Virus record (IMG/VR): IMGVR_UViG_3300020437_001282
Span: 1 to 23,766 of that record
Length of the DNA: 23,766 nt
Source of the DNA: a virus
Strand: one strand, 5' to 3'
The notes under the pieces were generated by a model. That model was not told where the DNA came from. It worked only from the letters and a program-made list of their open reading frames with translations, and made no database searches. Positions 1 to 22,757 of this stretch are shown here, piece by piece. Made by a program: the position numbers and the translations under genes. How positions within the stretch are numbered: the stretch's first letter is position 1; every line of letters starts with the position of its first letter.

Positions 1-1099
1 GATCAAAGAGACCTAATCCGCCTGTGACAGCAGCTGCCAGTGGTCCTGCAAATTTTGTCGCAGTGGTGAGTTTACTTAAGAATCCTGATCTCGGTTGACC
101 AGGTGGCTTAGCGTTATCTAATTCATCTAAGTATTGTGTAGCTGATGGTGCTTTTAAGTTTGATGTAGCTGGATTAGGAACGTTTATATTACCTACACTT
201 GGTGCTAAGGGTTTTGATCTAAAAAGATTTACTGGATTGAGTCTACTGAGCAATCTTCCGGTGCCAATACCACCAGCAATTCCTACACCCCCGGCAAACG
301 TTAGACCTAGAGTTTTTGCAATCGTTTGTAATATCGTAGGTTTCCCACCATCACCACTGTCGCCACCAGCTCCTCCAGCTCCTCCAGCTACTGTAGCCCC
401 TAAAGCTGACGTTCTTCTTGAACTAGGTGTAGGTACTACAAATCCTGGTAACTTATTTCTTTTATCCCTTTCAGCTTCAAGTGCATCAAGTCTTCCTCTT
501 CTCTTTAACTTGTACTCAAGCTCCATCATCTTGACTATATCTTCTACATTTTCAGATATCTTTTCATTAATATCTTTTATAGCAGTTGTTTCTTCAAGAG
601 CCTTTTGATTTATATCAACAAGGGCTTTCATGCTCTTACTTTGAAATAAGTTTCCTATTGTATTAGTAATTGCCTTTGGACCAGCAGCAATTGCTCCGCC
701 TATTCCTCCAAGTGTAGACTTTACTGCACCTGTCGCAAGACTAAAAGGCGCAGTTACTATATCTCTCACACTACTAATACCACTTGATACCGCTTTTCTA
801 GCTCCACTTATTGCTCGTCCTGGTAGTCTTGTTACTGTCTGTAGTATGTTTTCTCTGCCACCACCTACTTTATCGCCCATTTTTAATATGTTATCGTTTA
901 GTTCAACTAATTGATCAATAACTAAATCAGTTTTATCTGAAAAAGTTACAGTTAATTCGTTTAAACTTTTAAATAGTTTATCACTCTGTGATTGGCCTTG
1001 TTGTGTTTGTTCTGCTGCTACAGAAGGAAGCAACAGTCTTCTGTCTAAACCACTTTGGTTTTCATTTCTTAATTGATTTGTTGCGTCTTCAATAGCCAT
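1..1099 (-). CDS. Probable tail tape measure / tail-length protein (gp29 role), N-terminal 366 residues
   Basis: Partial gene: it starts with ATG at 1099 and runs off the window at position 1 without a stop (366 codons seen). The start shares its A with the stop of the small gene upstream (TAATG), so translation is probably coupled. The protein begins MAIEDATNQLRNENQSG. It has a charged helical region (residues 40-80), a glycine/alanine-rich hydrophobic stretch (115-150), a strongly helical charged segment (155-215), a Gly/Ala linker (232-252), and more hydrophobic glycine-rich stretches (262-285 and 349-365). Alternating long helices and hydrophobic glycine-rich segments are typical of tape measure proteins. 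The position directly after a gp26/gp51 chaperone pair is where tail phages keep the tape measure gene. No catalytic motif is visible. Function rests on composition and context, not on a clear sequence match; another hub or internal structural protein is possible. Confidence 0.6.
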   Translation of the reverse strand, partial: MAIEDATNQLRNENQSGLDRRLLLPSVAAEQTQQGQSQSDKLFKSLNELTVTFSDKTDLVIDQLVELNDNILKMGDKVGGGRENILQTVTRLPGRAISGARKAVSSGISSVRDIVTAPFSLATGAVKSTLGGIGGAIAAGPKAITNTIGNLFQSKSMKALVDINQKALEETTAIKDINEKISENVEDIVKMMELEYKLKRRGRLDALEAERDKRNKLPGFVVPTPSSRRTSALGATVAGGAGGAGGDSGDGGKPTILQTIAKTLGLTFAGGVGIAGGIGTGRLLSRLNPVNLFRSKPLAPSVGNINVPNPATSNLKAPSATQYLDELDNAKPPGQPRSGFLSKLTTATKFAGPLAAAVTGGLGLFD

Positions 1100-1290
1100 T
1101 ATACTTTTTTTCTTCTTTGTTGTTTTAGTCTTTCATTCTCTTCTTTTAGGAACTGAACTAACATATTTATGTATGCTTCTCTTTCCCATGGAATCATATT
1201 TTCCAGTTCTGATAACGAATATTTATGATGTTGTACTAGTGCGAAATTGGTCTTATAATGATTCACTAAGGATTCATTAGAAGACCACAC
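1099..1290 (-). CDS. 51: gp51-like small tail/baseplate hub assembly protein, likely made by -1 frameshift from gp26
   Basis: A 63-codon frame whose product contains SLSELENMIPWEREAYINML followed by a charged helix (EENERLKQQRRKK). This pattern matches the short protein encoded after gp26 in T4-like marine phages and annotated there as gp51, hub assembly catalyst. It also resembles the T half of G/GT tail chaperones. As a separate gene it would start with GTG at 1290, which overlaps the last base of the gp26 TAG stop, and there is no Shine-Dalgarno at a usable distance (the nearest AGGA lies about 20 nt upstream). A slippery T run at the gp26 stop would instead join it to gp26 by -1 frameshifting, giving a product of about 301 residues. 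It ends by sharing bases with the tape measure start. The frame is clearly coding; how it is expressed is inferred. Confidence 0.7.
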   Translation of the reverse strand: MWSSNESLVNHYKTNFALVQHHKYSLSELENMIPWEREAYINMLVQFLKEENERLKQQRRKKV

Positions 1291-1299
1291 TAAAAAAAA
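1248..1299 (-). promoter_or_regulatory. Candidate programmed -1 ribosomal frameshift signal (gp26 to gp51)
   Basis: On the minus strand the end of gp26 reads GAT TTT TTT TAG. The heptamer T TTT TTT (1299-1293) is a perfect X XXY YYZ slippery site in the gp26 frame and abuts the stop. After a 5-nt spacer lies a perfect 7-bp inverted repeat, TGGTCTT (1287-1281) and AAGACCA (1254-1248), with a 26-nt loop. A slip of -1 continues as TTA GTG TGG TCT straight into the gp51-like frame. Site, spacing and stem are read directly from the sequence. That it works is inferred from the known conserved frameshift in tail-assembly chaperone genes (for example lambda G/GT). Confidence 0.65.
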
Positions 1300-2003
1300 T
1301 CAGAAACATTCCTTATTTTAATATGTCTTTTTTTCTTACACCCTTCACATACGTACTCATGATTAATCTCAACTCTTGGTACAGATTCAACATAATCTCT
1401 TAACTTACCAAACTGATCATTAGTCATAGATTCTATGAACTCAAGAATCTTTTCACGTGGTTCATCTCTCATCATAATCTTTTCTTCTTCGGTATTAATA
1501 CAAACAATACAATCAGCTATCAGTTCTATTACACTTTCAACTGTTGACTGCTGTGACATTATCTTATCATTTGAAATCATTTTTAAAAAATTTGGATACA
1601 TCATTTCAACTGAAACAGAATCTGTTATTTGAATTACATCATCAGGTTTATCTTCTGTTTCAACAATCTGTACAGTATCAATGTCAACAGAAGTATCAGT
1701 CTTATAATTACATTCTTCACAGGTTACAGTTAAGTTAGCATTCTCACCTATGGATTTTGCTCTTATCTTTGTGAACATATATTCAATATCATAAAGCTTT
1801 AAATCATTTACTTTAATGTCTTCATTAATACAGCTTGTTATAGTATCAGCAACTGCATTTAAAGCAACTTTCTGATCGTCTGCTTCAAAGGCCATCAGTA
1901 AAACTTTTTCTTCTTTTACTAAGTACGGTCTAAATTTTACTTCTTTATTCAAAGAAGGTATTACAAGATCATACTTTGGTGTATCATTTAGTTTAGGTAT
2001 CAT
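1290..2003 (-). CDS. 26: gp26-type baseplate hub / tail assembly protein
   Basis: A 237-residue protein of the T4 gp26 baseplate family (Pfam T4_baseplate). It starts MIPKLNDTPKYDLVIPSLNK and continues EVKFRPYLVKEEKVLLMAFE, the most conserved part of the family. Two CxxC pairs (C95/C98 and C219/C222) could bind one zinc ion. In T4, gp26 is needed for hub assembly; tail-gene order here suggests it also acts like the G-type chaperone of the tape measure. The start chosen is ATG at 2003, because a strong GGAG (2012-2009) lies 5 nt upstream. A GTG at 2009 would use part of that ribosome site and is unlikely. The stop TAG lies in a T run that may cause frameshifting into the next gene. It follows the tube-fold gene by about 11 nt. 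Confidence 0.85.
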   Translation of the reverse strand: MIPKLNDTPKYDLVIPSLNKEVKFRPYLVKEEKVLLMAFEADDQKVALNAVADTITSCINEDIKVNDLKLYDIEYMFTKIRAKSIGENANLTVTCEECNYKTDTSVDIDTVQIVETEDKPDDVIQITDSVSVEMMYPNFLKMISNDKIMSQQSTVESVIELIADCIVCINTEEEKIMMRDEPREKILEFIESMTNDQFGKLRDYVESVPRVEINHEYVCEGCKKKRHIKIRNVSDFF

Positions 2004-2014: not shown

Positions 2015-2566
2015 TTAAATCATATCTATTATGTTAAGTGCTGCAGTTCCGTCACCTGGAATCCAGTCTGTATATGAAAGTTGTACGTTGTATCGAGCTA
2101 AAACATTAGTAGCTTCGCTTGATAATTCAACAGAATTTAATGTTGTTGGAAAAGCATCACGTAAAGTGCACATATTGCTTGTACTTCCGTCTCTTTTCAG
2201 ATGATGAATCTGTACTTCTTTTTGATAATCAACTTTAAAATTTACTATCCCTTCATCATTTGGAACAGTTTTTCTTGCCCATGTTTCAAAATATTTTTTT
2301 ATGGAATTATCTGCTGGCATATAGAATTCAAGTGTTACATCATCTACAGCATATCCATCAGCAACCTTTTCGCTTTTTATTCCTATTCTTCTTTCTTGAG
2401 TCATTATTTGTCTACCTGGCAAAGTTACTGAAGAACATAATAGTTGTAAATCTTCTGTAGTGGCGAGTCCAGCTCCTTCAATAAAAGGAAGAATAACTTT
2501 AAATCTGTTGACGTCAAGCAGACCTTCTTTCTCAGATACTTTTCGAACAAATGAGTTAATATTCAT
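2015..2566 (-). CDS. Tail-tube-fold protein, probably gp54-type tube initiator (gp19 family)
   Basis: A 183-residue protein with the features of the T4 gp19 tail-tube family: RFKVILPF near residue 21, CSSVTLPGR (44-52), AVDDVTLEFYMPADNSIKKY (73-92) followed by FETW, and a C-terminal beta strand region ARYNVQLSYTDW (157-168). The true gp19 tube gene normally sits beside the sheath gene gp18, which is absent here. The neighbours are gp26 and the probable tape measure on one side and gp2/gp4-like genes on the other. I therefore favour the tube initiator (gp54 role) or another tube-tip paralogue; the family assignment is firmer than the exact gene. Its ATG overlaps the TGA of the upstream gene (ATGA), so the two are probably translated together. 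It is shorter than T4 gp54 (about 320 residues), close to gp19 (163). Confidence 0.7.
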   Translation of the reverse strand: MNINSFVRKVSEKEGLLDVNRFKVILPFIEGAGLATTEDLQLLCSSVTLPGRQIMTQERRIGIKSEKVADGYAVDDVTLEFYMPADNSIKKYFETWARKTVPNDEGIVNFKVDYQKEVQIHHLKRDGSTSNMCTLRDAFPTTLNSVELSSEATNVLARYNVQLSYTDWIPGDGTAALNIIDMI

Positions 2567-3126
2567 GATAACGCTCTTACTTTCATTCTAGATTCTTTAT
2601 AAACAGTAGATGCCGGGGCTTTTCTCCACTGTGCAGTAGGTAGGAAGGTTGCTATTTCCCACTCAGGTTTTTCAACTAGAGCAAATTGACTTCTAACATG
2701 GTTGTTAAGATATCTATGTATTGTCGGTTCAACAAATCTACGTGGAAGACCAGCTCCTCCAGTGTTTCCAAGAATAGCATCAAGTAGCTTTGCTCTTAAC
2801 GTTGGTGGTAAGTAATGCAGATTCATTCCTATAAATCCTCCCCGTCTAGCGCCTGTTATAATAACCAGAGGAAACGCATCATAGTACGGTAGACTTACTC
2901 TGTACTTTGGATCATACTGAAACATGTACATATTTCCTATCGGTCCTACTGCGTCTGTATCCGCTCTTGACGATTTTGTAAGTTCGGGCTCATCCATAAT
3001 ATTTGGAATTGATACTTTTCCAAGTTGTGAAGCCTTCTTACGAAACCACTCAATAGACTGCTTAGTTCGCGGTGTAATTCCAGCACGAAATGCTTCTATC
3101 TCTAACTGTTGAAATAAATTTGCCAT
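2563..3126 (-). CDS. gp2-like protein, possible DNA end protector
   Basis: A 187-residue protein. The N-terminus reads FRAGITPRTKQSIEWFRKKA, the middle MYMFQYDPKYRVSLPYYDAF, then GFIGMNLHYLPPTLRAKLLD, ending WEIATFLPTAQWRK. I recall these blocks from a conserved protein of T4-like marine phages that is annotated as gp2, the DNA end protector that caps the packaged DNA end during head-tail joining. T4 gp2 is longer (274 residues) and I cannot verify homology by eye. Placement in the gp4 cluster fits, since genes 2 and 4 are neighbours in T4. No good ribosome binding site precedes the ATG. A perfect late-promoter box lies so close upstream that the predicted transcript would start at the ATG itself. 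It overlaps the next gene by 4 nt (ATGA). Confidence 0.5.
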   Translation of the reverse strand: MANLFQQLEIEAFRAGITPRTKQSIEWFRKKASQLGKVSIPNIMDEPELTKSSRADTDAVGPIGNMYMFQYDPKYRVSLPYYDAFPLVIITGARRGGFIGMNLHYLPPTLRAKLLDAILGNTGGAGLPRRFVEPTIHRYLNNHVRSQFALVEKPEWEIATFLPTAQWRKAPASTVYKESRMKVRALS

Positions 3127-3130
3127 ACGA

Positions 3131-3859
3131 CTATTTATAACTAATCTTAAGAAAACTTTGTGGTAGATTTGAGGTTACTACTTCTCCTAGATCTCGTAAA
3201 AATTCTTTATTATACACTGTCACAAGATATTTGCAACTATCAGGTATTTCATCTTGAATTTTATTATCTACTAAATAATAATATGTTTCTGGACAGAAAG
3301 AAAGACTGTCACAGCTTCCATATTCATAATTTCTTTTTCCTTCAAACCATCTGACTATCACGTCAGTATTAATTACTACACTTAGATACATAACTCCATC
3401 TTTATTTAATTTAGTTTTAAAAAATTGTATAAACTCTATAAGATCTTCATACGTGGTATGGCTGAACACACTGTATGAATATATTAGATCATACTTTTCA
3501 TTAAGATCAGGAAATTCTTTTTTATTACCTTTTGGATTATACATAGGATTGTATCTGTTATAGTGTATCCATTTCGCATTTGGAAATCTTTCTTTTCCTT
3601 CTAACATTGATTTATGATTAATATCAACACAAGTGTAGTTTTCATTAGGTAAATCAGGATTCATGAGTAATAAGTTACCTATAGGATAGCCTGCTTTCTT
3701 GGTGTAGTTTGGATCTTTCTCTCTAGGATCGCCACCTGGATCATTAATTGTGAAATTTCCACCGAAGTCTAGTATCTTCTTATTTTGAAAAGGACGTAAG
3801 AAGAGCGATATTCTTTTTAGATTCTTTTTAGAGGTTTTAGCTTCTTCATTTTTTTCCAT
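3131..3859 (-). CDS. Class I SAM-dependent methyltransferase-like protein
   Basis: A 242-residue protein with the layout of a Rossmann-fold methyltransferase: motif I KILDFGGNF (28-36), a strand ending in acidic CVDINHKSM (77-85), YDLIYSYSVFSHTTYEDL (123-140) as motif IV with the following helix, and LNKDGVMYLSVV (151-162) as the next strand. The glycine motif is DFGG rather than the usual DxGxGxG, and about 40 residues (NDPGGDPREKDP onward) are inserted between motifs I and II. The target cannot be told from sequence; small molecule, protein, sugar or nucleic acid are all possible. It lies inside a head/tail completion cluster, where T4 has no such gene, so it looks like an added cargo gene. 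Its ATG at 3859 lies within the upstream gp4 gene (43-nt overlap), and the next methionine is far inside the fold, so this start is required. A GGGA lies about 14 nt upstream. Confidence 0.7.
   Translation of the reverse strand: MEKNEEAKTSKKNLKRISLFLRPFQNKKILDFGGNFTINDPGGDPREKDPNYTKKAGYPIGNLLLMNPDLPNENYTCVDINHKSMLEGKERFPNAKWIHYNRYNPMYNPKGNKKEFPDLNEKYDLIYSYSVFSHTTYEDLIEFIQFFKTKLNKDGVMYLSVVINTDVIVRWFEGKRNYEYGSCDSLSFCPETYYYLVDNKIQDEIPDSCKYLVTVYNKEFLRDLGEVVTSNLPQSFLKISYK
3132..3139 (-). promoter_or_regulatory. T4-type late promoter box before the gp2-like gene
   Basis: Minus-strand TATAAATA, identical to the T4 late consensus. It overlaps the 3' end of the methyltransferase gene (Tyr-Lys-stop codons). 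Counting 6 nt downstream as in T4 late promoters puts +1 at 3126, the A of the gp2-like ATG, which would make a leaderless message. The box could be chance, since coding sequence contributes to it. Confidence 0.45.
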
Positions 3860-4305
3860 TTTTGCATAATTCCCATTTCAGCTAGAGTATCTTCAGTCCA
3901 TACTTGAAACTGCCAGCCACGATCTTTTGCAAAGTTATTAGCAGCTTTCCACTTATTCATATTCTTGACGTATGTCAAAGACTCATTAATATATCTTCTT
4001 CCTTTGATTCCTTGTTTACCAGGTTTAGGAGGTTGTGTTTCTTTCTTCGGCTTAATCTCAACTAATATTGTCTTGCCATCTTTCATTTTAATCTTAAGAT
4101 CAATGAAATACTTATGAAATTTTTTATCGATATCATAGTAGTACGGAATCACCGTCTCTTCACTCGACCATGACTTCACATTTGGATTTTTATCACACCA
4201 ACTAAAACACTTCGCTTCCCATAAAGATCTATAAATAATGTTGTCCACATCACCTTTATATTTGCTGGGATTCGAAACTCTATACTTCCCTTGATATAAA
4301 ACCAT
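3817..4305 (-). CDS. 4: gp4-type head completion protein (TnsA-like nuclease fold)
   Basis: A 162-residue homologue of T4 gp4 (gp50/65), a minor protein needed to finish DNA-filled heads before tail joining. Conserved blocks are NPSKYKG (12-18), DNIIYRSLWEAKCFSWCDKN (21-40), VKSWSSEE (43-50), KYFIDLKI (65-72) and ILVEIKPKKE (80-89). E30, D69 and E83-x-K85 form the acidic/lysine arrangement of TnsA-like restriction-type nucleases. Whether it cuts DNA is not shown by sequence alone. ATG at 4305 is preferred over a TTG at 4308, giving MVLYQGKYRV and leaving a GAGA element about 6 nt upstream. It is the first gene of the leftward unit. The C-terminal end is very lysine-rich and overlaps the methyltransferase start by 43 nt. 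Confidence 0.88.
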   Translation of the reverse strand: MVLYQGKYRVSNPSKYKGDVDNIIYRSLWEAKCFSWCDKNPNVKSWSSEETVIPYYYDIDKKFHKYFIDLKIKMKDGKTILVEIKPKKETQPPKPGKQGIKGRRYINESLTYVKNMNKWKAANNFAKDRGWQFQVWTEDTLAEMGIMQKWKKMKKLKPLKRI

Positions 4306-4315
4306 CAATCTCTCA

Positions 4316-6052: not shown

Positions 6053-7486
6053 ATGGATTTTGGCATAAATTTAAATAGTGGAACTACAGAACCAAAGTTT
6101 GATTTACCAACAGACTTTAGATTCGATCATATTAGAATCACAACAGATAGAACTGATAGGATCTTTGAAGTTCAGAACGTAACTTCAGAATTTGTTATAT
6201 TTGAACACATTGACAAACCTTTTCTTACAGCAAAACTTGTAATAGTAGACATAGATCCTCAGGTAAATCTTGTGGATCAGATTCATTTTCTTGGAACTGA
6301 AAAAGTTGAGGTTAAGATTAGAACTCAGAGTTCTGAAGATTTTACAATAACTAAAAATTTTGTTGTAACTGAAGTCGTTATCTCTGAAAAGAGTGGTGAT
6401 GGTAATGAAGTCATAATATTAGATCTTATCGAAGATGTAGCCTATCATTCAGCCTTAATGAGATTAAGTAAATCTTACACTGACAATAAGTTAATGATAA
6501 TAGGAAAATTATGTCAAGTTGTAGAAAGAGAAGTTTTTATTACTCCAGGTACAGAAGAAAAAATAAATGGAGACAAACAAACAAAGGTAATTATTCCAAA
6601 TATGCATCCGCTCGAAGCAGCAAACTGGATAAAAGATAGAACGTATACGAGTGATGGCTTCCCTTTCTTTTTTTATTCATGCATTTCTGATGATAGATTG
6701 AGGCTTAGAGACCTTAGAGAGTGTCTAGAAGAGCCGGCTTTAAACAACAGTCAGATACCTTACAGCAATTCAATTTCTTTTGCTCAGAGCAACAGAGGTG
6801 ATGGAAATCCTAGTGAACCGAACTTATTAGATGAAGCATTCAATATTACTAAAGTCAAGGTTGCTAATATTGAAAGACATCTTGAACTTGCAAGAATGGG
6901 TTTTACGACTTCAAAATATAATTTTGTAGATACAACAACGGGAAACAATATTACGTTTGATTATGATATGTCAAAGCAATATGAAAAGTTAATTGAGAAA
7001 CAAGTATTAAATGGGTCTCGCCAAACTTTCTATCCTACCTACGATTTTAATTTTAGAACAGGAAAAGAACTTAAAAACATAAGAGAACATTCTACTAAAG
7101 AGATAACTCACTTCGCTACTTCTAGGCAGTTTAATGATTTTGCAGACACTGAAAGTTATCATGAAGGAAAAGTACTAGAAGATCATACACAAAAAGTTAT
7201 TGCAAAAAGTTTAAGACATTGGTTACTTAAATCAAGCATACAAATAGAAGTCCCGGGAAAGAATTTTTTAAAAAAAGATGCAAATTTAACAATTGGAAAT
7301 ATTATAAAATGTGAATTTCTATCTAATAGAAATCTTAGAAGAGGTTTAAATAGTGATGACATAAGTGATTTAAAAAAATCTGGTGAGTACATGATATATA
7401 CTGCAAGACATCAATTCACTGGTAACACGTATTACGTAACAATGGATATTGGTAGACTTGGAACAAAAGGATACGGAATAAATTAA
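6053..7486 (+). CDS. gp27-like baseplate central hub protein
   Basis: A 477-residue protein starting MDFGINLNSGTTEPKFDLPT. ATG 6053 is chosen; a TTG at 6035 inside gp53 would add only six residues, and 6053 follows the gp53 stop at once. The first 110 residues are beta-rich (FRFDHIRITTDRTDRIFEVQ, TAKLVIVDI, KVEVKIRTQS), as in the gp27/gpD/VgrG hub fold. Residues around 180-200 hold the conserved pattern IPNMHPLEAANWIKDRTYTS followed by GFPFFFYSCI, found in hub proteins of this type. The C-terminus is again beta-rich. T4 gp27 (391 residues) forms the trimeric collar that holds gp5. The next gene has a gp5 OB-fold, so gene order supports the hub role. Similarity to T4 gp27 itself is weak by eye. 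The stop TAA shares its A with the gp5-like start (TAATG). Confidence 0.72.
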   Translation: MDFGINLNSGTTEPKFDLPTDFRFDHIRITTDRTDRIFEVQNVTSEFVIFEHIDKPFLTAKLVIVDIDPQVNLVDQIHFLGTEKVEVKIRTQSSEDFTITKNFVVTEVVISEKSGDGNEVIILDLIEDVAYHSALMRLSKSYTDNKLMIIGKLCQVVEREVFITPGTEEKINGDKQTKVIIPNMHPLEAANWIKDRTYTSDGFPFFFYSCISDDRLRLRDLRECLEEPALNNSQIPYSNSISFAQSNRGDGNPSEPNLLDEAFNITKVKVANIERHLELARMGFTTSKYNFVDTTTGNNITFDYDMSKQYEKLIEKQVLNGSRQTFYPTYDFNFRTGKELKNIREHSTKEITHFATSRQFNDFADTESYHEGKVLEDHTQKVIAKSLRHWLLKSSIQIEVPGKNFLKKDANLTIGNIIKCEFLSNRNLRRGLNSDDISDLKKSGEYMIYTARHQFTGNTYYVTMDIGRLGTKGYGIN

Positions 7487-8382
7487 TGAAAACATTATAT
7501 TCAGAGTATGCACCAGCCGATGCGATTTGGTTCGTAGGAAAAGTTATCAGCAATACTGATCCTTTAAAACTTGGTAGAGTTCAAATAAGGGCGATGGGTA
7601 TTCATACTAGTAACTTATCAGATATACCTACAGCAGATCTTCCTTGGGCACAAGTATTAACAACAGACGGTGGAACTTCTGGTGTTGGATCATTTGTTCC
7701 ATATCAGCCTGGTGCTTTTGTCGTAGGAATATTTTTAGATGGAAAGTCCGCGCAGATACCTCTTATATTAGGAACAACACCTACGATACAAGAAGCATCA
7801 CCTACACAAAGAACTGATCCAAAAGCACCACCGTTTCCTATAAAGAGAGAAAGAAGCTCGAACATAGAAGAGTCAAATGTTCCAACAGATGGAACAGTTG
7901 ATGATCAAAGTGTTAATTCTAATATCACAGGAAGTACCAATGCTGAAAAAGTTTTTAATTTCTTTACTATAAATGATTTTACACCAGAACAGGCTGCTGG
8001 ATTCATAGGTAACTTTTCAATAGAATCTAATTTAAGACCTGATGCACTGAACCCAAACGATAAAGGAAAACCAGCTTTTGGATTGGCACAGTGGAGAGGA
8101 GATAGACTCGAAGGTTTAGAATATTATGCAAAAGGAAAGAATTTAACTAGAGACAGTCTAGAAGCTCAGTTACAATGGACTATGCATGAGTTAAGAAACA
8201 AAGAAAGAGGTGCAGGCGCAAAAATTAGAAATACTAGAACTGTCGTTGAAGCTACAACAGTGATATGTAGATTTTATGAGAGACCATCTTTTAAAATTGT
8301 TGATGGTGTATACACAAGTCCATCTCTTCCAAAAAGAATAGCAGATGCAAAAGAAAGTTTTGAAAGGTTTGCAAGAACATGA
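7486..8382 (+). CDS. 5: gp5-type hub protein: OB-fold plus tail lysozyme domain, lacking the needle
   Basis: A 298-residue protein. Residues 12-100 resemble the gp5/VgrG OB-fold: WFVGKVISNTDPLKLGRVQI, then LPWAQVL, VPYQPGAFVVGIFLDGKSAQ and IPLILGT. A Pro/Ser/Thr linker (100-150) follows. Residues 152-245 form a phage tail lysozyme-type domain, with TPEQAAGFIGNFSIESNLRP (166-185) and FGLAQWRGDRLEGL (198-211). E180 is the likely catalytic acid, set as in lytic muramidases or transglycosylases of that family. In T4, gp5 (575 residues) also carries a C-terminal beta-helix needle. Here the protein stops after the enzyme and the needle appears two genes downstream. The lysozyme is of a different family from T4 gp5 lysozyme. 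The stop overlaps the amidase ATG (ATGA). Confidence 0.85.
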   Translation: MKTLYSEYAPADAIWFVGKVISNTDPLKLGRVQIRAMGIHTSNLSDIPTADLPWAQVLTTDGGTSGVGSFVPYQPGAFVVGIFLDGKSAQIPLILGTTPTIQEASPTQRTDPKAPPFPIKRERSSNIEESNVPTDGTVDDQSVNSNITGSTNAEKVFNFFTINDFTPEQAAGFIGNFSIESNLRPDALNPNDKGKPAFGLAQWRGDRLEGLEYYAKGKNLTRDSLEAQLQWTMHELRNKERGAGAKIRNTRTVVEATTVICRFYERPSFKIVDGVYTSPSLPKRIADAKESFERFART

Positions 8383-9896
8383 CAACTATTAATAAAGTTC
8401 CAGTTAGTAAAGTTAATAATACGTTAACAAGAGTTCCTATCACGGGTAGGTTTAGCTCACAACTAACACAGATCGAAAAAGCTGCAGAAACATTAAAAGC
8501 TGCTCAAAGCACTAAACTAGGATCAAGCTTGAATGAAACTATAAGTGGTGTAAAAGCACTAACTCAACCAGATGAATATCCAACAGACATATTGTCTGAA
8601 CCACCGATTGCACAGATTACAGAAGAAGCCGATGCCTCTTTGAAAAAAACATCATCTCAAGTTTCAAACATTAATAAAATGACATCATCTGGTCTATCTG
8701 GTGATGGATTTATGAATGCGCATATAATGAGTGGAACACCACAAGCAGTAAAAAACGGAATATTTAATGCTTCAGGTATTGAACCACCATTAGGAAACTT
8801 ACAAGCAATAGCTCCAAACTTTTTACAATCTGCGGCTGCTACTTCTTTACCAAAAATGTCAGTAGGAGGAGAATTTCTTTCTCAAATTACTTCAGCGAAT
8901 GCTGAGTTAGGAAGCACCACCTCAAACATAACATCATTAGTATCTTCATTGCTAGGTGAACAACAAAATATTGGTCTTACGCAAAAAACTATTATTAATA
9001 GTCAGAATTATTTAGAAGAATTTTTAAAAACTGTTTCAGAAAATACTTTATCACCTGAAGAAGTTTTAAACTGTACTAATTTACTTTTAGAAGGAAAACA
9101 AAACGAAGTAATAAACATTGTTTCTAAAGCTGGTGCAAGAGAAGGAGTTACGTTAGATAACGTCAACGTAGAAAATTCTATAATTAAAATCACACCGTCT
9201 GCTGCAGAAGCTATAGACATCAAGTCTTCATCACTAAACAGTATGGGATCTTCAACAAGAAAAACTAGAGATCTAGGTACGGTCGGAAATAAATGGAATG
9301 GTTCTAGTACAAACACTGGTGACTATAACTTTGAAAAAGTAAACTCTATGGAAGAACTAGTGGCTGATCTAAGAAATCTAACAAGAGAAATAACAGAAGT
9401 TGTAGTACACTGGACAGCACATTTTAACGATCAAGGACATGTTGGAGCAAAAGAGATACATCAGATAGCAATCAATAGAGGTTTTGCAGGATGCAGTTAT
9501 CACTACATTATTAAAAGAAACGGCGACTTAGAGAGAGGAAGGCCGGTCAGACTAAAAGGAGCGCACGCAAGAACTGCTGGTCATAATAACTTTAGCATAG
9601 GAATAGCGTTTATTGCTGGTTATAACTGTCCTTCTGGAACACGTAATCCAGACAGATACGTGAGTTCTGAATCAATAACTCCAGCACAGTATAAAACTTT
9701 TGATATGTTTTTAAAAGGATTCTTCATGATATATCCTGGAGGACAAGTATTTGGTCATCAAGATTTTGATAATAATAAAGTAGATCCTGGTTTTGATGTT
9801 GAGGCTTATATTGATGCTAGATTCAATAGAAAAAACGTTACAAATCCAAATGACGGGCCAGCTACTCCAACACAAATCGCAAGTATCGTAGGATAA
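8379..9896 (+). CDS. Tail-associated N-acetylmuramoyl-L-alanine amidase (Amidase_2 fold)
   Basis: A 505-residue protein. The N-terminal 320 residues are Ser/Ala/Thr-rich, match nothing I recognise, and may anchor the enzyme in the hub. Residues 340-485 are an Amidase_2/T7-lysozyme-like domain: VVVHWTAHFN (341-350), AKEIHQIAINRGFAGCSYHY (357-376), then IIKRNGDLERGRPV, NFSIGIAFIAG (404-414), and FGHQDFDNNKVDPGFD (458-473). Predicted zinc ligands are H344, H460 and D469; Y374 and K467 fit the catalytic Tyr and Lys of T7 lysozyme. The third ligand is Asp, as in E. coli AmpD, where T7 lysozyme has Cys. The enzyme would cut the amide bond between muramic acid and L-Ala. There is no signal peptide. 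It sits between lysozyme and needle genes, so I infer it is delivered by the tail spike rather than being the lysis endolysin. Confidence 0.85.
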   Translation: MTTINKVPVSKVNNTLTRVPITGRFSSQLTQIEKAAETLKAAQSTKLGSSLNETISGVKALTQPDEYPTDILSEPPIAQITEEADASLKKTSSQVSNINKMTSSGLSGDGFMNAHIMSGTPQAVKNGIFNASGIEPPLGNLQAIAPNFLQSAAATSLPKMSVGGEFLSQITSANAELGSTTSNITSLVSSLLGEQQNIGLTQKTIINSQNYLEEFLKTVSENTLSPEEVLNCTNLLLEGKQNEVINIVSKAGAREGVTLDNVNVENSIIKITPSAAEAIDIKSSSLNSMGSSTRKTRDLGTVGNKWNGSSTNTGDYNFEKVNSMEELVADLRNLTREITEVVVHWTAHFNDQGHVGAKEIHQIAINRGFAGCSYHYIIKRNGDLERGRPVRLKGAHARTAGHNNFSIGIAFIAGYNCPSGTRNPDRYVSSESITPAQYKTFDMFLKGFFMIYPGGQVFGHQDFDNNKVDPGFDVEAYIDARFNRKNVTNPNDGPATPTQIASIVG

Positions 9897-9900
9897 TAAA

Positions 9901-11925
9901 ATGACAACAGAAAATAATGAGTTAGAACTACGTATTCAAGATACAAGTGAAGCAGCAGTAAATGCCGAAGGTCGGCCTGAAGACGCATTTAATGATCCAA
10001 CAGGTCAGTTTCCTAGAGGTAACTATCATGATCAACCATCGGTCAATAAGGCCGTAAGAGGCGATACTATAAATGAGCTTGATCTTAGAAATGGTATTCC
10101 AGGTGTAGATACAGATCTACAGCAAAAAGTAGCAACACAATATCCGATGGCTGCTACTACGGAATCTGTATCAGGACATATTATAGAAATAAATGATACT
10201 CCCGGTGGAGAACGTATTCTTATCAAACATAATACTGGTGCCGGTATTGATATTAAGTCTGATGGCTCTATTGTTATAAACACTAAAGGAAATAAAGTAG
10301 ATATTGTTGATAACGATCATCGATTAGTTGTAGAAGGTGATGGAAATGTTTCTTACTTTGGAAACTTAAATATGAATGTTTCTGGTGATTATAATTTAAC
10401 AGTAGGAGGAAACTATAACTTAAAAGTAAAGGGTAACTGGATAGCAACTATTAGCGGTTCTTATAAAAAGAAAATATTAGGAATTATGAGTGAAGTTGTT
10501 TTGAAATCAAAGTCTGTAACAATTTTAGGTCAGACTATAAACACACATCTTTCAAATGTTGGTAATTTTATTAAAGGTACCTATCAACAAATGGTGAAGA
10601 AAAGAGCTGATTATAATCATGGAGCAGAAGCTTTGTTCAATGCCGAAACAGAAATAAACATGACTAGTCCAAAAGTAAATATTGCAGCAACTGATCTTTC
10701 TGTTATAGGTGCACAAGGAACTATAGGCGGGCAAAATATGATTCATTATGGAAAGAATATGTATCTTGAAAATACTATACACTCTCCGACTGCGAGTTTT
10801 ACATCAGCATACGCTACAACTTTTCATGGATCATTAAATGGTACAGCTAACTTTGCTGTTAACTCATCTGTGGCTGGTGGTATTGCTGTTGTACAAATTC
10901 CAAGTGCCAACATTAATTCAGACGCAGTTGATAACACAGAAACTCAAAAACCTACGAGTTCAGAAATTACTGATCTTTTAACTAACAATGAGATTGGTCC
11001 GAAGAAAGTAAGTATAGATGAAAACAATGAGATTAAAAACTTTCATGATAAAACTGTTACATCAGGTGGAATAACAACAGGTGAAACAAACACTAGAGAG
11101 ACAAGATCTAAACTAAAGGATAAGAAGAATCTACAAAACACAAACTTTGTAGCTGATAGAGTGGCATCAGGAAACTTATCTGCTTCATTTGCAAATGCTG
11201 TTCCTGGGCAAATTGAGAGAGTAAGTGGAAAAGCAACGACACCGAGAATCGGTCATGACATAATGGGTCAAACTGGAAGATCTCTAAGTGAGAATAAGTA
11301 TAAACCATCTGAAGCTGCTGCTAAACCAAGAACATATGTTTATTCAGTTACAGCTAAGTTTAATCCTAATAATCTCACAGAAATAACACATAACACTTTA
11401 CTTGGAAGAGGTATACCGATATCAAAATTTACCGGAGCAGTCGGTAATAAAACGACTTTAAATCATATTACGGATAAAGATAAAAGACTACAAATCGCGA
11501 GAAACTTACTAGTTCAAGCTAATATCATTGAGTTATTTAGATTTCTTGGATCTATGAAGGGATTTAATCTAGTAGTTGCTGAAGGAATATATCAACCAGG
11601 ACCTGGTGAAACACCGACTCCAGAAAGTTTCAATGACTTGGCACAAACTGGAAGAGCTGTAGCATATGAAATATATGCCCAAGGTGGTGGAATAGCCTTA
11701 GATAAACTATATGACTTTGCAGAGTTCTTAAAAGATAGCTACAGCTATAATAAATTAGGATTAGCATATGATAAATTTAATCCAGATGGAAAACTACATG
11801 CACAGTTAATAGTTGAAATACCTAATATTCCTGCTTCATACAGAGCTACTTATGATATGCAATTAGAAACAACTTTTAACAGTGAGATTCAGAGTTCATC
11901 AGATTTAGTTGAAATATTATCTTAA
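9901..11925 (+). CDS. gp5 C-terminal-type beta-helix needle protein with a possible degenerate M15-like domain
   Basis: A 674-residue protein. Residues 85-130 hold a beta domain (SGHIIEINDTPGGERILIKH, then GAGIDIKSDGSIVINTKG) seen in gp5 and VgrG-like spikes before the needle. Residues 140-215 hold near-octad repeats around VSGDYNLTVGGNYNLKVKGN (160-179), then SGSY, the VxGxxxxx pattern of the T4 gp5 and VgrG triple-stranded beta-helix. This makes it the likely membrane-piercing spike. Residues 340-470 are low complexity and probably a linker. The C-terminal 195 residues form a separate globular domain. NLLVQANIIELFRFLG (535-550), then FNDLAQTGRAVAYEIY (577-592) and LHAQLIVEI (632-640) loosely resemble an M15 carboxypeptidase, but the SxHxxGxAxD ligand residues are absent. 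That part is only a suggestion. It begins 4 nt after the amidase stop. Confidence 0.72.
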   Translation: MTTENNELELRIQDTSEAAVNAEGRPEDAFNDPTGQFPRGNYHDQPSVNKAVRGDTINELDLRNGIPGVDTDLQQKVATQYPMAATTESVSGHIIEINDTPGGERILIKHNTGAGIDIKSDGSIVINTKGNKVDIVDNDHRLVVEGDGNVSYFGNLNMNVSGDYNLTVGGNYNLKVKGNWIATISGSYKKKILGIMSEVVLKSKSVTILGQTINTHLSNVGNFIKGTYQQMVKKRADYNHGAEALFNAETEINMTSPKVNIAATDLSVIGAQGTIGGQNMIHYGKNMYLENTIHSPTASFTSAYATTFHGSLNGTANFAVNSSVAGGIAVVQIPSANINSDAVDNTETQKPTSSEITDLLTNNEIGPKKVSIDENNEIKNFHDKTVTSGGITTGETNTRETRSKLKDKKNLQNTNFVADRVASGNLSASFANAVPGQIERVSGKATTPRIGHDIMGQTGRSLSENKYKPSEAAAKPRTYVYSVTAKFNPNNLTEITHNTLLGRGIPISKFTGAVGNKTTLNHITDKDKRLQIARNLLVQANIIELFRFLGSMKGFNLVVAEGIYQPGPGETPTPESFNDLAQTGRAVAYEIYAQGGGIALDKLYDFAEFLKDSYSYNKLGLAYDKFNPDGKLHAQLIVEIPNIPASYRATYDMQLETTFNSEIQSSSDLVEILS

Positions 11926-21880: not shown

Positions 21881-22090
21881 ATGAAACTAGTAAGAATAGG
21901 AAAAGATTTAGTAAAAGATGAAGAGTCTGGAGCAGTACTTAATACTAATGAAGATGAAATAGAAAAAGCAAAAAGTATTAAGGAAGTTAAAAAGACTGAA
22001 AAAGAAGAACTAGAACAGCTTAAAGATGATGTGAGTGAACTAAAAGATATGATGAAACAACTATTAGAAAAGATGAATAACGATGGCTAG
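21881..22090 (+). CDS. Small charged coiled-coil protein, function unknown
   Basis: A 69-residue protein. The N-terminal 25 residues (MKLVRIGKDLVKDEESGAVL) are mixed. Residues 25-65 are almost entirely charged and helical with a heptad pattern (EELEQLKDDVSELKDMMKQL, then LEKMN), so a coiled coil is likely. It lies 1 nt after the giant gene, with GGAG about 7 nt before its ATG, and its last 8 nt overlap the next gene. Both neighbours contain or form coiled coils, so it may be a partner or chaperone for the fibre proteins. This is inference; I do not recognise a family. The tight spacing and the ribosome site argue that the frame is real. Confidence 0.65.
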   Translation: MKLVRIGKDLVKDEESGAVLNTNEDEIEKAKSIKEVKKTEKEELEQLKDDVSELKDMMKQLLEKMNNDG

Positions 22091-22757
22091 AAAAACTTTT
22101 GTAGATTTAAGTGATACACTGAATGCTTTCAGGGTTAAGACTAATGTTATATCATATAACGTTGGCGACTTAGACAGTCTTCATTCAAGTTTACCTGATT
22201 CTGACTTAGTTCAAGCAATCAATTTTCTTAGATCAAACGATTCGAATAACTTTGTTAATCTACAAGCTCAGATTACAAGTAATGACTCCGATGTTATTAA
22301 TCTACAATCGCAGATCACGACTAACGATTCTGATATATTAAATTTACAAGCTCAGATTACAAGAAACGATTCAGACGTAATCAATTTACAATCACAGATC
22401 ACGACTAACGATTCTGATATAAATCATTTGCAGTTACAAATTGCAAGTAATAATGATTCTTTAGCTTCAGAAAGACTTGCTCGTATTGCTGGTGATAACA
22501 ATCTTCAAACTCAAATTACAAATAACGATTCTGATATTTTAGCTTTACAAAATATTACAGGTGGTGGTGGAAGTACTTCTCTACAGACACAAATAAATAA
22601 CAATGATTCTGACATATTAAATTTACAAGCTCAAATAACTGGTAATGACTCTGATATTGCAAACATAACAGTTGTTCGAACATCAACATTTAGTATTTTG
22701 AAATCTGATGGGACAGTAGCAAAAAGGATTTTCGGTTTTGTAGATTCAGGAGTTTAA
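22083..22757 (+). CDS. Fibrous trimeric coiled-coil structural protein with asparagine-layer repeats
   Basis: A 224-residue protein. The N-terminus (MARKTFVDLSDTLNAFRVKT) may be an attachment domain. Residues 57-125 are 14-residue repeats of the form LQxQITxNDSDVIN. Written in heptads, I or V occupies position a, and position d alternates between Leu and Asn (IxxNDSD then IxNLQxQ). This is the IxxNxxxI asparagine-at-d pattern of trimeric coiled coils such as trimeric autotransporter stalks, where Asn layers hold anions. Further repeats occur at 140-160 and 166-195, separated by a glycine hinge (TGGGGSTS). The last 28 residues form a small cap (FSILKSDGTVAKRIFGFVDS). A fibre, whisker or connector role is likely. 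It overlaps the previous gene by 8 nt and is followed 2 nt later by another structural gene. Confidence 0.7.
   Translation: MARKTFVDLSDTLNAFRVKTNVISYNVGDLDSLHSSLPDSDLVQAINFLRSNDSNNFVNLQAQITSNDSDVINLQSQITTNDSDILNLQAQITRNDSDVINLQSQITTNDSDINHLQLQIASNNDSLASERLARIAGDNNLQTQITNNDSDILALQNITGGGGSTSLQTQINNNDSDILNLQAQITGNDSDIANITVVRTSTFSILKSDGTVAKRIFGFVDSGV
22261..22428 (+). repeat. Two tandem 84-bp direct repeats inside the fibre gene
   Basis: Copies at 22261-22344 and 22345-22428 both begin TACAAGCTCAGATTACAAG and share the block CAGATCACGACTAACGATTC. Each encodes a 28-residue double repeat. Imperfect 42-bp (14-residue) periodicity continues downstream. The near identity at DNA level suggests recent duplication. 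Confidence 0.85.

Follow-up and report, generated by a model that had tools for sequence, protein, structure and literature searches.

In phage lambda, the tail tube gene is followed by a chaperone gene with a -1 extension near its 3' end (gpG/gpGT) and then by the tape measure gene, and tape measure and tube binding roles have been described for this pair (PMC5009743). The contractile-tailed phage P2 also carries an annotated -1 frameshifted tail protein pair, gpE/E+E'. In 2016, G-T frameshifting was described as widely conserved except in T4 (PMC5009743). Cyanophage gp51 had earlier been noted to reach only ~20% of the usual length, with no frameshift explanation being offered (Sullivan et al. 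2010, PMC3037559). The tail assembly chaperone genes of T4-like phages have since been identified, in outline, by Vladimirov, Gautam & Davidson (2022, Virology 566:9-15, doi 10.1016/j.virol.2021.11.003); where other papers refer to that work, they credit it with the finding that some T4-like phages pair a short gene with a long, fused one and do not frameshift (PMC10885494), and with poly-T slippery sites in T4-like phages (PMC12846349).

The stretch of DNA analysed here (the window) is a 23,766-base IMG/VR virus record, a fragment, with profile matches to T4-like contractile-tail genes for the tail tube, DNA end protector, head closure, tube cap, and baseplate wedge and hub. The features of its chaperone locus are as follows:

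2015-2566, minus strand: tail tube protein, upstream neighbour of gp26 (phrog_45, E 7.5e-34; PF06841)
1290-2003, minus strand: gp26, a TAC-N-like chaperone of 237 aa from the ATG at 2003 (PF12322, 170.9 bits; phrog_150, 182 bits)
1293-1299, minus strand: slippery heptamer T TTT TTT, in phase with gp26 (sequence; in-phase T TTT TTN in 174/177 loci)
1290-1292, minus strand: 0-frame stop TAG, directly 3' of the heptamer and overlapping the GTG of the listed gp51 ORF
1288-1292, minus strand: 5-nt spacer TAGTG
1281-1287, minus strand: 5' arm of the stem, TGGTCTT (sequence and folding; same stem in relatives L001, L003, L004 and L107)
1248-1254, minus strand: 3' arm of the stem, AAGACCA (sequence and folding)
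1099-1290, minus strand: gp51 domain (TAC-C-like) in the -1 frame, with no Shine-Dalgarno (phrog_634, E 8.2e-26; phrog_150 positions 238-277)
1099-2003, minus strand: predicted gp26-gp51 fusion (TAC-NC-like) of 301 aa (-1 reading from ATG 2003)
2-1099, minus strand: tape-measure-like protein, downstream neighbour, running off the window (weak phrog_167 and phrog_58 matches, E 1e-4 to 4e-4)

The 3' end of gp26 reads, on the minus strand, TCT GAT TTT TTT TAG TG TGGTCTT(26 nt)AAGACCA, and the heptamer, the 5-nt spacer and the 7-bp stem with its 26-nt loop (1280-1255) proved exact to the base as the earlier note had placed them. The -1 reading, DFFLVWSSNESLVNHYKTNF..., begins DFFLVWSSNES and ends at the TAA at 1101-1099, which, counted from ATG 2003, yields the fusion of about 301 residues that had been predicted. 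A GGAG lies upstream of this ATG, with which the GTG at 2009 is also in frame, and the PF12322 match is above threshold (cut-off 24.5 bits). With a GC content of 34%, T runs are not rare in the window; this is its sole run of eight T in this orientation, and a heptamer of the form X XXY YYZ occurs within the last five codons at only 3 of 44 ORF ends (ORFs of at least 60 codons). Some other features of the window were recorded. A methyltransferase-like gene (3131-3859, minus strand) lies between head closure (3817-4308) and DNA end protector (2563-3126), and is absent from the same place in C48C1 (L006). The gp5-like hub/lysozyme region (7486-11925) appears split among several ORFs: 7486-8382 contains the OB and lysozyme domains, 8379-9896 an amidase and 9901-11925 another gp5-like part (phrog_430). 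The ORF at 22083-22757, with weak minor-head-protein and adhesin matches, contains a tandem repeat (22255-22421) of two copies of an 84-base unit with a 42-base sub-unit.

We propose that the window comes from a T4-like marine myovirus whose short tail assembly chaperone is gp26. Most ribosomes would stop at the TAG and release gp26, and a minority would slip one base back, the Phe-tRNAs re-pairing on TTT TTT, and read on through the gp51 domain into the fusion; in the window phage, the slip would be helped by the stem-loop 5 nt downstream. If lambda gpG/gpGT is a guide, the N-terminal part common to both products would cover the tape measure protein, and the C-terminal extension, carried by few molecules, would bring in tail tube subunits. 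The likeness to lambda noted here is one of layout, the T domain, the slippery site and the length being different, and P2 gpE/E+E', whose proteins are shorter, is likened to the window by annotation and not by sequence. The sequence layout, conservation, homology, fold match and copy-number pattern are directly observed; that ribosomes slip, how often they do so and which proteins are bound is inferred.

Among relatives, the slippery site was conserved almost throughout. We drew on 893 records with gp26 in the phage collection and on 160 loci from two profile scans of IMG/VR; the heptamer count covers the 177 loci readable across the gp26/gp51 junction, and all locus counts come from related sequences that are not independent. 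The in-phase T TTT TTN was present in 174 of these, and in 173 it is separated from the downstream gp26 stop by 0 or 3 nt; the three loci lacking the heptamer are L005, a remote match (39 bits), and two Ackermannviridae. Past the slip, every one of the 173 has 58-68 open codons in the -1 frame, which carries the gp51 domain, and these frames are colinear up to the YxxNF region. All 165 distinct loci use TTT for the first Phe, compared to 72% elsewhere in gp26, and the codon before Phe-Phe ends in T in all 165 distinct sequences (a naive log10 P of -51, which ignores kinship); a control using other Phe-Phe dipeptides, where 1 of 101 was slippery, is biased by the preceding residue and carries little weight. 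This conservation also bears on the idea that an assembly error or a decayed gene split produced the junction. A homopolymer position would invite such an error, but the idea is refuted by 173 loci that share the layout, complete isolate genomes among them, and we give it practically no credence. The best reading, with which the 173 loci agree, is that gp26 and a -1 frameshift into gp51 very probably supply a short and a long tail assembly chaperone of the G/GT type, which supports the interpretation in the earlier note.

Transcriptional slippage on the T8 run could also give rise to the fusion. Eight T suffice for RNA polymerase slippage in some systems, and the window has eight. However, 101 of the 165 distinct relatives carry only T6C and not a longer T run, which makes a poor transcriptional site and a good ribosomal one, and we find this route to the fusion most improbable.

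In several Ackermannviridae, the gp51 domain also lies in the -1 frame and the canonical heptamer is absent. The Kuttervirus/Taipeivirus loci (L023, L185 and L189-L203) have an invariant ATT TTC ATT TAA TTTTTGAAATTGATTTA and no usable start codon, and two Vibrio phages (L020, L186) have CTT TTT CGC TAATG and GTT TTT CGC TAATG. All of these heptamer-less loci retain an A-site TTY able to re-pair as TTT, an arrangement that can be likened to T7 gene 10.

A different account would make gp51 a separate small protein, produced by stop-restart coupling (TAGTG, TAATG, TGATG), with the T run merely coding for a conserved Phe-Phe. In its favor, a GTG (1290-1288) overlaps the gp26 stop in the window, TGATG or TAATG occurs in several distant relatives, and public records list gp51 as a separate CDS or omit it. 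Yet a Shine-Dalgarno precedes the first -1-frame start in only 2 of 173 loci, versus 93 of 172 for gp26 and ~10% of random positions, and 40 of the 173 have no ATG, GTG or TTG in the first 13 -1-frame codons; in C48C1 and HTVC008M, the first such start does not come before codons 28 and 20, respectively. Taken together, the scarcity of ribosome sites and of early start codons argues that gp51 is generally not self-initiated. Moreover, the gp51 domain is covalently fused in T4 gp51, and a need for Phe-Phe alone leaves T TTT TTN unexplained, since T4 keeps Phe-Phe with other codons. We therefore hold stop-restart coupling alone to be very unlikely. The earlier note had named, as evidence against a frameshift, relatives that lack a slippery sequence and whose gp51 has its start and ribosome site intact; no such relatives appeared among the Kyanoviridae-type phages. 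The note's description of the window's gp51 frame as lacking a normal start and ribosome site held for the Shine-Dalgarno, which is absent, and less so for the start, as the overlapping GTG is present. This GTG could allow for both products, a frameshifted fusion and some free gp51 by restart. The window and its closest relatives all have an unchanged TAGTG, but the GTG has no Shine-Dalgarno and, more widely in the family, the stop/start overlap is not kept, which leaves such a combination rather unlikely.

The stem downstream of the slip site is a more local feature than the heptamer. In the window, only 1.6% of positions have a perfect 7-bp stem within reach downstream, and folding of the 60 nt from 1290 to 1231 (minus strand) gave -16.3 kcal/mol (z -3.74). 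Upon comparing the window with its four closest relatives (L001-L004), we found degenerate codons for invariant amino acids to be identical at 18 of 20 positions from the slip site through the stem, versus 36 of 129 in the gp26 body and 10 of 24 beyond the stem, indicating synonymous constraint. Some cyanophages have another stem, e.g., AAGTATGTCTCA/TGAGACATACTT, in which L098, L103 and L176 show paired changes. Over 165 loci, the mean folding z was -1.45, compared to -0.33 to +0.31 in adjoining stretches, and folding of these junctions left many of the loci with no evident stem. A universal downstream stem was considered and rejected: the best shared register (i+j = 40) paired 62-70% of cells in cyanophage-type loci, versus 29-54% for other registers, and covariation was mixed. 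Thus, of the T run and the stem, both of which were to be sought in relatives, the former was conserved (174/177) and the latter was found in some lineages only; by its sequence distribution, the stem would be a clade-level enhancer at most and no part of a universal cassette. That the stop, the overlapping GTG and a stem under unusual constraint together set three products in the window clade (gp26, the fusion and a free gp51 domain) seems to us rather unlikely; if it were true, chaperone stoichiometry would be tuned by a clade-specific RNA element and not by the heptamer alone.

An AlphaFold model of gp26 (pLDDT 93.8) provided a link to known chaperones, gp26 having no significant match by sequence among solved structures. 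Residues 1-85 resembled the HK97 tail assembly chaperone gp13 (2OB9) with a Foldseek probability of 0.95 and a weak E-value of 0.32, and superposition gave Z 7.6, below 8, with an rmsd of 3.7 over 84 residues, where unrelated rows reached Z ≤3.2. By this fold match of moderate strength, gp26 looks like a tail assembly chaperone, which differs from HK97 gp13 in having an additional region that contains two paired CxxC motifs. These CxxC pairs, at ORF residues 97 and 221 (numbered from GTG 2009; window 1293-2003, minus strand), are far apart in sequence; CxxC motifs also occur in T4 gp26 and are missing in 97 of 173 loci, and the second part of the model weakly resembles zinc-ribbon proteins (ZPR1, Z 3.2). 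Together with the fold match, the adjoining tail tube gene and the tape-measure-like gene downstream support the lambda G/GT analogy. Of these neighbors, the tube gene is clear (E 7.5e-34) and the tape measure gene was matched only weakly (E 1e-4); in HTVC008M, a putative tape measure is annotated two genes after gp51. At the 3' end of the window's gp51 (1099-1115, minus strand), AGA AAA AAA GTA TAATG contains A AAA AAA in phase, from which the -1 frame continues into the tape-measure-like ORF; a second frameshift at this site, out of gp51 and into the tape measure (A AAA AAA G before TAA), was considered, and the site was taken as chance, such a heptamer occurring in only 5 of 172 loci.

The comparison with T4 suggests a different solution to the same need for a short and a long form. 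T4 gp26 (208 aa, 215.6 bits) and T4 gp51 (249 aa, 177.5 bits) each match PF12322 over its full length, and gp51 alone extends into a C-terminal domain (residues 147-246, phrog_634), which corresponds to what the window reads in the -1 frame. Like the window, T4 thus combines PF12322 and phrog_634 domains in short and long chaperone forms; unlike the window, it does so with two divergent paralogous genes, an in-frame fusion as the long form and no slippery site, the 3' end of its gp26 (GAG TTC TTT GAG) having kept Phe-Phe but not having the heptamer. Frameshifting is reportedly described, in an abstract from 2022, as conserved in several T4-like groups, with T4 using genes 26 and 51. PF12322 is present once in each of the 20 relatives (20/20) whose gp51 lies in the -1 frame, twice in T4 and Klebsiella phage VAC36, and once in the window, a 23.8-kb fragment. 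XZ1, a phage filed under Straboviridae, has a single copy together with GAT TTT TTC, so that both states occur within this family. Judged by these sequence matches, T4 would thus have two paralogous genes where the window phage has one gene and a frameshift. The proposed equivalence of gp26/gp51 of T4-like phages to G/GT therefore finds agreement in 173 loci, and in T4 itself takes the form of two full-length divergent paralogues. The Kyanoviridae (S-SSM7, P-SSM2, HTVC008M, C48C1) share the window's cassette, with T TTT TTY and the -1 frame, but their gp26 is only 33-37% identical and their stem is different or absent; cyanophages mostly have T6C and one codon before the stop.

The earlier note knew of no demonstration of this for gp26 and gp51, a statement that is out of date given the identification of the T4-like chaperone genes by Vladimirov et al. 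(2022). The frameshift idea is right and already published in outline, and the window phage is a well-supported further example. It would explain the short cyanophage gp51 noted by Sullivan et al. (2010), as the missing 200 residues would come from gp26, and it corrects the annotation of cyanophage and pelagiphage gp51, usually entered as a separate gene and sometimes truncated or missing; among the database records of this family that were consulted, none had a joined CDS. Overall, the pattern fits the notion that the T4 lineage exchanged a frameshift for a duplicated gene, which agrees in outline with the 2022 publication.
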